In this document: positions 15,258-44,929 of the stretch, piece by piece
How positions within the stretch are numbered: the stretch's first letter is position 1
How the letters are laid out: every line of letters starts with the position of its first letter
Origin: an uncultured Bacteroidaceae bacterium
Lineage (GTDB): Bacteria > Bacteroidota > Bacteroidia > Bacteroidales > Bacteroidaceae
Direction: 5' to 3'
Length of the DNA stretch: 64,000 nt
Assembly: GCA_944320955.1 (NCBI GenBank)
Contig: CALUJL010000030.1
Span: 1 to 64,000 of the forward strand
The notes under the pieces: generated by a model
Told to the model about the DNA's origin: nothing
What the model saw: only the letters and a program-made list of their open reading frames with translations
Database searches by the model: none
Program-made: the position numbers and the translations under genes

Positions 15258-16307
15258 TTATAATATGCGTACACTTTTATGCTTGTTCTTTGCCTTTTTC
15301 CCGAAATTCATGTCCATGAAATAGCCGAACACGATGTCGTGGCTTCCGCCGGAGGCTCCGATTCCGTTGGTGAAGAGCTCGTAGGAATAGGAAAGCCGCA
15401 CGTTCTTGATCATTCCTCCCACGATGAACGTCACCGAAGTGCCGGGGCTGTAGGAAAGACCTCCGGTCAACTCTTTTCCTTGCATGTCGTAAGTGACCCG
15501 GCCCGTCAGGTCTATTTTGTATTGCTCGAAGTCGCTTTTCACAAGGAGCGAGGGTTGCACCGTTAAAAACGGGTTTTTTGTCTTAATATTGCTCCCGGCG
15601 GTCAAATAATAGGTGGGCTTTACCTGATATTCGTTGGTCTCTCCCCAATTTACGGTGGGCGAAAGCAGGTGCGTGGCCGAGATTCCGGCATAAAACCAAG
15701 GGTGCGTGTAGAAAACGCCGACTCCGGCGTCAAAAGCCGTGCCGCTTTCCTCGGAAGTCGGTATGGCTTCGTCCGTAGTGCCGCCTTCCATGCCGCCCAC
15801 GCTGCCCTCCCCGTTGCTGTCCTCATCGTAAACCGTCACGTCGGAGGGGTCGAACCCTACACTCACCATGCCCAATTGGATACCGGGCCCGAGGGTTCCG
15901 CCAAAAAGGTTGAACTTCATGGAATATTGCACGCCGAAATACATGTTCGTGAAGAAGCCTATCTGGTCGTTTACGAACATAGCGCCCACTCCCTGCTTGC
16001 GTCCGAGGAGTTTGAAGGGCACGTTTGCGCCGAAGTACATGGTCTTCGGAGCGTTTTCGAAGCCGCTCATCTGCTGGCTGTAAGCCGATTCTACGACGAG
16101 GCGGTCGGACTGTCCGGCGTGGGCGGGGTTGTAGTAGCCGGTGACGGCCCAGTATTGGCTGAACTGGGCGTCGAACTGTGCGTGTCCCTCTGCCGCCGCA
16201 TACAGGAACAGCAGTCCGCAGAGCAGCCATTTGCAGCTTGCAGGGAACGCTCCGGCAAGGATTTTCCGGAAAAGCGCGGCGGGGGGTGTGAAACTTCGGG
16301 TGTCCAT
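15258..16307 (-). CDS. porP: Type IX secretion system membrane protein PorP/SprF
   Basis: PorP/SprF proteins are outer-membrane beta-barrels of the T9SS. The 349-residue sequence has the family N-terminus after signal cleavage (QFDAQFSQYWAVTGYYNPAHAG), then alternating barrel strands such as YFGANVPFKLLG and GVGAMFVNDQIGFFTN, and ends with HDIVFGYFMDMNFG. The signal region is long (about 44 residues); its first part reads TPPAALFRKILAGAF, encoded by DNA resembling a decayed unit of the palindromic repeat. It is first of porPKLMN. The 217-base gap upstream (16308-16524) holds a degenerate repeat unit near 16347-16385 and a small hairpin at 16474-16489, but no clear TAnnTTTG promoter. Confidence 0.94.
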   Translation of the reverse strand: MDTRSFTPPAALFRKILAGAFPASCKWLLCGLLFLYAAAEGHAQFDAQFSQYWAVTGYYNPAHAGQSDRLVVESAYSQQMSGFENAPKTMYFGANVPFKLLGRKQGVGAMFVNDQIGFFTNMYFGVQYSMKFNLFGGTLGPGIQLGMVSVGFDPSDVTVYDEDSNGEGSVGGMEGGTTDEAIPTSEESGTAFDAGVGVFYTHPWFYAGISATHLLSPTVNWGETNEYQVKPTYYLTAGSNIKTKNPFLTVQPSLLVKSDFEQYKIDLTGRVTYDMQGKELTGGLSYSPGTSVTFIVGGMIKNVRLSYSYELFTNGIGASGGSHDIVFGYFMDMNFGKKAKNKHKSVRIL

Positions 16308-28518: not shown

Positions 28519-29460
28519 TTACAGGGTGGAGAGGAGGCGGAGCACGGCGTAGAGGGGGATTTTCCGGTAGCGGCCGGAGGGGCGGCTGCCGGGGGTCCAC
28601 TCGGCGGGTTGCAGGCTGCTCAGGGAGAGTTCGAGGGCGAGGGGTTTGGCGGCGCCGGTGAATTGGGCTTTGATGCGGGTGGGGAAGGCGCGTGAGGCTG
28701 TGTTTTCGTATCCTCCGTACTGCCAGGTGGTGGCGTAGGGGCTGCCGGTCTTGGCCAGGGATGTGGCGGCGAGGCGGAGGCTGGCCGCGTCGAGGTCGAA
28801 GGCGCAGCTGAGGCCGGAGGCGGAGGTGCTGAGGCGGACGATGTTTTGTGCCTGGCGGGGGGACTGCTGCATGGCCGCGGCGTCGGCCAGGGTGAAGGCC
28901 GGCTGTCCGGGACGGAAGAGGGTGGCGCTCAGGAGTGCCTGCAGGGCGTAGAAGTCGAGCCCTGTGCCGGAGAGGGCGCTGAGGCGGGCGATGGGTTCTT
29001 CGACGTAGCTTTTGTGTATGCGGTCTATGATGAGTATCTGCTCGGGGCTGGCTTCGATGCGCACGGCCTCGGTGCCGAGGAGGGGGACTTGCAGGGAGAG
29101 TTGCAGGGCGCGGTCGCGCTGGAGGCGGAGGGTGCCGCCGAGGGAGAGGTTTTTCTCCCCGAGGGTGAGGTTGAAGCGTGCCTTGGCGGTGTAGCTTCCC
29201 TGCCAGCTGATGGACTGGCGCGCGAGGGCTTCTCCTGTTTGGCCTTCGGTGGCGGGGGAGAGGACGGGGGCTTCTTCGTGCCCGGCCAGGGTGTGCTTGC
29301 GGCTGCTGCAAGCGGCGGCGAGCAGGAGGAGCAGGGCGAGGGGCCAGAGGCGCAGGCACTTTTTGGGAAAAGTGCTGCATGTTTCCCGGAAAAGTGCTGC
29401 ATGTTTTCCGGAAAGTGCTGCATGTTTTCGGGCCGGGGCTGGGGGGAGCGGTGTGTTCAT
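28519..29460 (-). CDS. DUF4292 lipoprotein whose signal-peptide n-region is encoded by a repeat array
   Basis: 313 residues. The lipobox LAAAC gives Cys51, much further from the start than usual. Residues about 11-36 (KHAALSGKHAALFRETCSTF, then PKKC) are translated from palindromic array R10 and form a basic n-region before the hydrophobic core LWPLALLLLLAAA. There is no in-frame ATG between the array and the core, so translation from MNTPLPP is the simplest reading. The mature part (SISWQGSYTAKARFNLTLGE, VPLLGTEAVRIE, and a lipid-binding-like beta fold) matches DUF4292, an outer-membrane-associated lipoprotein family with a LolA/LolB-like fold. Its start overlaps the TPR gene stop (ATGA). 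Confidence 0.85.
   Translation of the reverse strand: MNTPLPPAPARKHAALSGKHAALFRETCSTFPKKCLRLWPLALLLLLAAACSSRKHTLAGHEEAPVLSPATEGQTGEALARQSISWQGSYTAKARFNLTLGEKNLSLGGTLRLQRDRALQLSLQVPLLGTEAVRIEASPEQILIIDRIHKSYVEEPIARLSALSGTGLDFYALQALLSATLFRPGQPAFTLADAAAMQQSPRQAQNIVRLSTSASGLSCAFDLDAASLRLAATSLAKTGSPYATTWQYGGYENTASRAFPTRIKAQFTGAAKPLALELSLSSLQPAEWTPGSRPSGRYRKIPLYAVLRLLSTL
29351..29432. repeat. Palindromic-unit array R10, inside the DUF4292 lipoprotein gene
   Basis: Four units, three of them nearly identical (core GTGCTGCATG), at the extreme 5' end of the gene and encoding the region in front of the signal-peptide core. Confidence 0.85.
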
Positions 29461-44011: not shown

Positions 44012-44896
44012 TCAGCTGTGGGGCGGGCGGCGCTCCCGGCTTTTCTGCTCGTAGAAGCGGATTTTCACGTAGGCTTCTTCGGTCTCCTTCTTGAGTTTTG
44101 CGATTTTGGCGAGGTTCTCGTAGCAGCGGTATACGGCGCTGATGGCCTTGCGGTCTGCCGCGGTGAGCGGGACGGCTACAGGGCCGCCGTCGGTGAGGAA
44201 GAAGAGTTTCAGGCCGGCGCCCTCGTTTTCGGCCACGAATGCGGCCACTTCCACCGCGCCCTGCGCCTCGGTGTAGTCCACCTTGCGCCCCGTGCCCTGG
44301 GTGAATGCCTCGCCCCCGGTGGTGCGCACTTCACGGTCGCCCAGGCGGAGGAGCACTCCGCGGTGTTTCACCGTGCGCCCGCTGCGGGCCACGGAGGTCA
44401 ATACCAGATTTCCACTCTCGCTGACCTGCGCGCGCAGGTAGGAACGCGACGCGTTGGCCTCGTCCAGTTGCGAGGGGGCCAGGTAGTTTCCTTCGTCTTC
44501 GTACTGTGCGTCCTTCACGAGCCGCAGCCCGCGGCGCAACTGCTCACCCTCTCTTTCCAGCGCGAGGCGCATGCTGTCGGCCAGGGCTATCTGCTCTTGG
44601 GCGGAAGTGATGACGATGCGGTTCTTCAGGTCCAGGCCTTTCTGCCGTGTCTCGAAGGCCTTGGGGCAGGAAGCCTTGATGCTGTCGATGAGGCGGTAGG
44701 CCAGAGAGTCGTCGCCGTTGCGGTAGGCTTCTTCGGCCTGTGCGTAGATTTCCCGGGCGCGCTCTTCCTGTTTCTGGCTGTCGTTGCAGGAGACGGCGAG
44801 GAAAGATGCGGCGCAAGCGGCAAAAAGTGCAGCGCTTTTTCCGAAAAGTGCCAGCGCTTTTCCCGGAAAGATGCAGCGCTTTTTTGAGTTCTCCAT
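44012..44896 (-). CDS. Lipoprotein of unknown function whose signal peptide is encoded by a repeat array
   Basis: 294 residues. The lipobox LAVSC places Cys37 at the end of the signal sequence. Residues about 4-27 (SKKRCIFPGKALALFGKSAA) are translated from palindromic array R19, so most of the positively charged region and part of the hydrophobic core are repeat-derived. The mature part starts with a helical TPR-like segment (about 45-75, AREIYAQAEEAYRNGDDSLA), then a coiled coil and a beta domain, and ends with helices. No family recognised. A TACATTTG -7 box at 44929-44922 lies 26 bases upstream and supports this start over the in-frame ATG at 44944, which lies upstream of the box. Confidence 0.8.
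   Translation of the reverse strand: MENSKKRCIFPGKALALFGKSAALFAACAASFLAVSCNDSQKQEERAREIYAQAEEAYRNGDDSLAYRLIDSIKASCPKAFETRQKGLDLKNRIVITSAQEQIALADSMRLALEREGEQLRRGLRLVKDAQYEDEGNYLAPSQLDEANASRSYLRAQVSESGNLVLTSVARSGRTVKHRGVLLRLGDREVRTTGGEAFTQGTGRKVDYTEAQGAVEVAAFVAENEGAGLKLFFLTDGGPVAVPLTAADRKAISAVYRCYENLAKIAKLKKETEEAYVKIRFYEQKSRERRPPHS
44802..44886. repeat. Palindromic-unit array R19, inside a lipoprotein gene
   Basis: Three strong units (cores GTGCAGCGC, GTGCCAGCGC, GATGCAGCGC) and a weaker fourth, spanning the signal-peptide codons of the lipoprotein. Confidence 0.85.
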
Positions 44897-44921
44897 AGTG
44901 CTTCGGTTTTTCGTGCTGCCA

Positions 44922-44929
44922 CAAATGTA
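44922..44929 (-). promoter_or_regulatory. Bacteroidetes-type -7 box
   Basis: The minus strand reads TACATTTG 26 bases before the lipoprotein ATG at 44896; no clear -33 element. Confidence 0.5.

Follow-up and report, generated by a model that had tools for sequence, protein, structure and literature searches.

Arrays of a 22-bp repeat in signal peptide coding regions of a Bacteroidaceae genome, with a lipoprotein signal peptide that is predicted to be almost entirely repeat-derived

The reverse strand of the window, the whole stretch of 64,000 nucleotides analysed from an uncultured Bacteroidaceae bacterium, carries a lipoprotein gene at 44012-44896 (294 aa, open reading frame from the ATG at 44896). 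The protein is conserved, with a match in 34 of the 61 relatives searched. Pfam has no family for it, no relative was found in the structure database, a protein search of the genome contig collection gave no match, and an NCBIfam match of the TPR/BamD type is weak and below the cut-off. The N-terminus reads MENSKKRCIFPGKALALFGKSAALFAACAASFLAVSC37, with the lipobox cysteine at residue 37. This cysteine follows the h-region (FLAVSC37), as in lipoprotein signal peptides cleaved by signal peptidase II, and the aligned orthologues are lipoproteins; the n-region is basic, with five Lys/Arg residues before the h-region. The lipobox itself (AVSC, codons 34-37, reverse strand 44786-44797) is, from its sequence, not derived from the repeats described below.

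A TAnnTTTG promoter box (TACATTTG, reverse strand 44922-44929, identified by sequence match only) lies 26 bp upstream of the ATG, and there is no -33 TTG at the usual distance of 19-21 bp from it. The first-pass annotation had taken this -7 box to fix the transcription start; the box is present and supports such a start rather than fixing it, given the missing -33 element. The same annotation had argued that the repeat array must be translated if the ATG at 44896 is used, and this is borne out: there is no in-frame ATG, GTG or TTG between this ATG and Cys37, so the array is then obligatorily part of the open reading frame. We infer that this signal peptide is produced in the cell and functions as one of type II.

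Tandem Repeats Finder reports an array at 44823-44884 with a period of 22, 2.9 copies, 85% match and a score of 92. Unit cores were scored with a genome-wide unit matrix, for which scores above 10 bits are expected about 0.06 times per kb of random sequence. On the reverse strand, unit 1 (AAAGCGCTGCATCTTT, codons 5-10, 44867-44882) scores 26.9 bits, unit 2 (AAAGCGCTGGCACTTT, codons 13-18, 44845-44860) 21.1 bits and unit 3 (AAAGCGCTGCACTTTT, codons 20-25, 44823-44838) 22.1 bits; the three are spaced by exactly 22 bp (44882-44823). They are followed by an eroded unit 4 (CTTGCGCCGCATCTTT, codons 27-32, 44802-44817, 0.7 bits), which is one base off the 22-bp register, carries the known word GCGCCGCATC, has CTT in place of the AAA triplet and encodes the hydrophobic core. 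A possible degenerate unit overlaps the start codon (reverse strand 44895-44910, 10.8 bits), out of register and 28 bp from the next core. This confirms the original observation of a lipoprotein signal peptide built from repeat units at 44802-44886; the coordinates match, but the array covers codons 5-32, slightly more than the codons 4-27 first proposed. The array supplies every basic residue (all five of those before the h-region) and most of the hydrophobic core and, if the gene is expressed from the ATG at 44896, the predicted signal peptide is nearly all repeat-derived, the exceptions being MENS and the last residues LAVSC.

A second lipoprotein gene with a repeat-made signal peptide had been reported in the window and is real: the LolB-like lipoprotein insertase gene at 28519-29460 (reverse strand; NCBIfam LolB1_Flavo, 4.7e-36; Pfam DUF4292) has repeat units at 29369-29427 (reverse strand), codons 11-31. 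This protein is itself an outer-membrane lipoprotein sorting factor. A weaker likeness had been noted in the leader of a PorP/SprF gene (reverse strand, 16250-16295). This region has an exact copy of the 16-mer GCGCTTTTCCGGAAAA, but the unit matrix finds no scorable core in it (best score -4.5). As 11 of the 16 occurrences of GCGCTTTTCCGGAAAA in the 2.62 Mb examined lie in arrays, a single-linker repeat remnant in the PorP leader is credible.

The genome (2.65 Mb in 35 contigs, 58% GC, of which 2.616 Mb were analysed) contains 1455 core matches, compared to 111 for a reversed control pattern, and these group into 416 arrays of at least two units. The unit consists of a near-palindromic 16-bp core, AAA-N10-TTT, and a 6-bp linker, giving the period of 22 bp; N10 is drawn, in both orientations, from a small dictionary (GTGCTGCCGC, GCGCTGCCGC, GCCCTGCCGC, GCGCTGCATC and others), and adjacent units usually differ in their words. 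The majority of arrays (344) is intergenic, 32 are in the first 40 codons of genes, 34 in gene interiors and six at 3' ends; 72 of the 416 overlap genes. Of the 344 intergenic arrays, 249 have no stop codon in any of the six frames. Intergenic density hardly depends on whether the gap is tandem, divergent or convergent (about 1.0-1.2 arrays per kb), and A-tracts recur in the arrays on average about every 11 bp, so that a role in DNA curvature or in the nucleoid is possible. The called starts at C10:75927 and C18:21192 (MQHF... and MQRF...) appear to come from the ATG within the repeat word CATGCAGC; translation at C18:21192 probably begins further downstream.

The species-specific N10 words do not rise above background in any of 60 relatives, one of them a genome of the same genus, and word-specific patterns gave only three exact matches in the genome collection, all unrelated; on both counts a widespread repeat sequence is rejected. 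What recurs within the same taxonomic family is the bare architecture, 22-bp arrays of AAA-N10-TTT-N6 with own words in each species. It was seen in nine other genomes and further ones besides; their words (for example CCTTGGAAGG and GACCGCGGTG) are often near-palindromic, and in some family genomes the swapped order TTT-N10-AAA is matched more often. In 264 kb of orthologue DNA from relatives there was no array of the general architecture. Mobilisation of the arrays by a RAYT/REP system was rejected: the Y1 transposase (PF01797) has no match in the genome, and control genomes were positive.

The distribution of arrays over genes was examined with 1775 genes called by a trained codon model (our own heuristic rather than Prodigal), of which 524 (29.5%) were classed as exported by a simple heuristic signal peptide rule rather than by SignalP. 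Of the 32 genes with an array in the first 40 codons, 26 are exported (odds ratio 10.8, p=1.4e-9). Six genes that probably start only after their array (LpxK, GT2, DUF4494, FKBP, CBAH and a thioredoxin-like protein) were removed by hand; 20 of the remaining 26 are exported (odds ratio 8.2, p=6.6e-7). The array is in the n- or h-region in 16 of these 20 genes and just past the h-region in four, and a count restricted to those 16, in which the array is part of the signal peptide, lowers the significance to p=7e-4. The first-pass annotation had expected repeat-derived segments to be more frequent where exported-protein genes begin than at random in-gene positions, and in this comparison, which had been set in advance and was run on 2.62 Mb, the expectation held: gene-interior arrays have no exported bias (9 of 32). 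Nor is there such a bias for arrays upstream of genes (100 of 314 within 300 bp, 34 of 119 within 80 bp), which rules out a regulatory preference of the arrays for exported genes. Array density per kb is 0.716 in intergenic DNA, 0.318 at exported 5' ends, 0.040 at other 5' ends and 0.021 in the remaining coding sequence. A chance resemblance of Lys, Ala and Leu codons to the unit was also excluded: synonymous-codon shuffles of the same N-termini contain a mean of 2.2 arrays and a maximum of six, compared to 21 observed, and thus codon composition is not the explanation.

Orthologues of the lipoprotein at 44012-44896 have ordinary, short lipoprotein signal peptides with about 11-20 residues before the cysteine (25 measured automatically, some of them shortened by the search pattern), compared to 36 here; the same-genus orthologue has 20. 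The array spans 28 codons and the net gain in length is 16 codons, so the array took the place of about 12 residues of the ancestral peptide. The LolB-like protein and a DUF4836 lipoprotein also have array-free orthologues with ordinary lipoprotein signal peptides, and Pfam matches of other genes with signal peptide arrays are to GldH lipoprotein, outer-membrane efflux protein, periplasmic binding protein, S41 peptidase and DUF4249, all of which we take to be exported families. Export is therefore older than the arrays. It had been suggested that array insertion can create or replace export signals; these comparisons favour replacement, and speak against creation, as the families are exported anyway in every case checked. 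Judged by sequence, the arrays replace or extend existing signal peptides and do not create export.

Several residue-level features of the arrays are consistent with their translation and with selection after insertion. Asp and Glu make up 1.3% of the residues encoded by signal peptide arrays, compared to 4.0-4.1% for intergenic arrays read in all frames (three observed, 9.3 expected, P=0.008); the signal peptide predictor uses n-region charge, which causes a mild ascertainment bias in this test, and the depletion is also found with the predictor left aside (21 N-terminal arrays, p=0.011). In-frame reading of the interior arrays gives 9.5% Asp/Glu and fewer Lys/Arg than the intergenic all-frame reading (p 1e-8 to 1e-12). 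In 9 of the 16 signal peptide genes a next unit, 21-22 bp away and in or near register, is recognisable in the h-region (about 0.5 expected at this threshold). These h-region units have never kept the AAA (Lys) triplet (0/9, compared to 103/229 intergenic, p=0.006), and mostly kept the distal TTT (7/9, compared to 75/229, p=0.009). The h-region codons for KALLLF (AAAGCGCTGCTGCTTT) resemble the unit, so that some eroded units may be original h-region sequence or have served as a seed of homology. The last full cores of the signal peptide arrays are not frame-locked: the three frames are used 6, 6 and 4 times. The 34 arrays inside genes are in frame, for example in MurE (C14:68864-70408) and RibD (C35:22575-23720); apparently they sit in linkers or loops. 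The MurE array is flanked on either side by a region that can be aligned to solved structures, indicating that insertions elsewhere in genes are also in tolerated places.

The signal peptide arrays are probably best explained by neutral spread of the repeat into coding sequence that tolerates it, followed by purifying selection. A lineage-specific family of arrays with a 22-bp period would invade the genome at nearly random positions, and selection would clear most copies from coding DNA. Signal peptide coding sequence would be the exception: every frame of the repeat gives Lys/Arg and small hydrophobic residues (KALPLF, KSAALF, KKRCIF), which the n- and h-regions could accept, and the signal peptide is then cut off. 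Insertions there would persist at almost half the density seen between genes, to be trimmed by point selection, with acidic residues excluded and Lys (AAA) lost from units in the hydrophobic core. The lipoprotein at 44012-44896 would be the furthest case, its ancestral n-region and most of its h-region having been replaced by the array. Tolerance rather than benefit presumably drives retention: it is the simpler account of the enrichment; all three frames are used and the density in signal peptides is below the intergenic one.

The arrays may instead have nucleated, or recombined by microhomology, at signal peptide codons (AAA ... GCG CTG CTG CTT TTC), so that the enrichment reflects a preference of insertion rather than tolerance. 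KALLLF is one base away from the unit consensus AAAGCGCTGCCGCTTT, several arrays start directly at Lys codons after the Met, and the synonymous shuffles give 18 single core matches by chance in exported N-termini. We nevertheless consider such a targeted origin unlikely, as the last full core is found in all three frames and not only in the one that spells KALLLF, and as intergenic arrays are evenly spread over gap types. Still less probable is that signal peptide arrays are adaptive and improve or regulate export, for example by a long basic n-region or by frame switching through gain or loss of 22-bp units, in the manner of the opa CTCTT repeats: here, the density in signal peptides (0.32 per kb) is below the intergenic density (0.72 per kb), leaving no excess to explain, and the different words of adjacent units disfavour slippage, even though in most of the genes all or most of the basic residues ahead of the h-region come from the array, the h-region units appear tuned through the loss of Lys codons, and the gain or loss of one unit would shift the frame, 22 not being a multiple of three. 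Adaptive roles, including frame switching, are possible and are not needed to account for the data. That the arrays are merely in 5' UTRs with the true starts downstream is probably correct for the six of 32 genes that have an ATG after the array, and is very improbable as a general explanation: arrays just upstream of genes have no exported bias, and for the 16 counted genes it is refuted by the absence, in the sequences inspected, of an in-frame start between array and hydrophobic core in the lipoprotein at 44012-44896 and the other 15, unless non-canonical starts are used, such as the CTG at codon 15 of this lipoprotein.

The arrays may have a wider significance. Arrays of the AAA-N10-TTT type, as a family-wide architecture with species-specific words, might repeatedly invade and rewrite signal peptides and thus act as a general engine of signal peptide turnover, with detectable domestication of units into hydrophobic cores; we put this forward tentatively, as less likely than not. 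One repeat at about 400 places in a genome is in any case a natural mutagenesis experiment that maps where the proteome tolerates insertions, and among coding regions only signal peptides are treated in nearly the same way as intergenic DNA. The evolvability of signal peptides has long been argued from random-sequence secretion screens and becomes measurable here in a natural genome. A practical consequence is that start sites will be easily misannotated where a 5' end carries an array.

The BrickBuilt MITE of Porphyromonas gingivalis, with 19 intergenic elements that have a leader, a tail and terminal inverted repeats (PMC4596501), resembles the arrays described here in being dispersed through a Bacteroidales genome as arrays of units of about 22-23 nt. 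However, BrickBuilt is an intergenic 23-nt direct repeat, whereas the period here is 22 and the approximately 400 arrays are short and many lie within genes (72 of 416 overlap them). In Neisseria, the CTCTT coding repeat of the opa genes lies in the signal peptide coding region (PMC3899988) and is likewise a DNA repeat within such a region; it consists of identical pentamers, is restricted to one gene family and is phase-variable by slippage, while the arrays here are not near-identical tandem units of this microsatellite type, as neighbours carry different N10 words. Rickettsia palindromic elements are found in frame within conserved genes, look selfish and are open to translation (Ogata 2000, via PMC10969869, PMC2229807). 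They share with our arrays (MurE, RibD and the 34 interior arrays) the presence of palindromic DNA in frame inside conserved genes, but are single palindromes of 105-150 bp with a conserved peptide; the arrays here lack such a peptide and have 22-bp units with variable words, use all three frames and are concentrated in signal peptides. A precedent for a repeat in a signal peptide is the Yersinia RU-2/YPAL element, which forms part of one signal peptide at the locus YPO1552 (Delihas 2007, PMC2759123; PMC2229807). It is one 168-bp element at one locus; in the present genome 16 genes are affected, the units are modular and 22 bp long, the enrichment is statistical, and there are signs of selection on individual residues. 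Nothing in the literature searched describes a dispersed repeat that is concentrated in signal peptides across a genome, which is not proof of absence. Isolated precedents are known (Yersinia RU-2, Rickettsia palindromic elements); the genome-wide pattern looks new.
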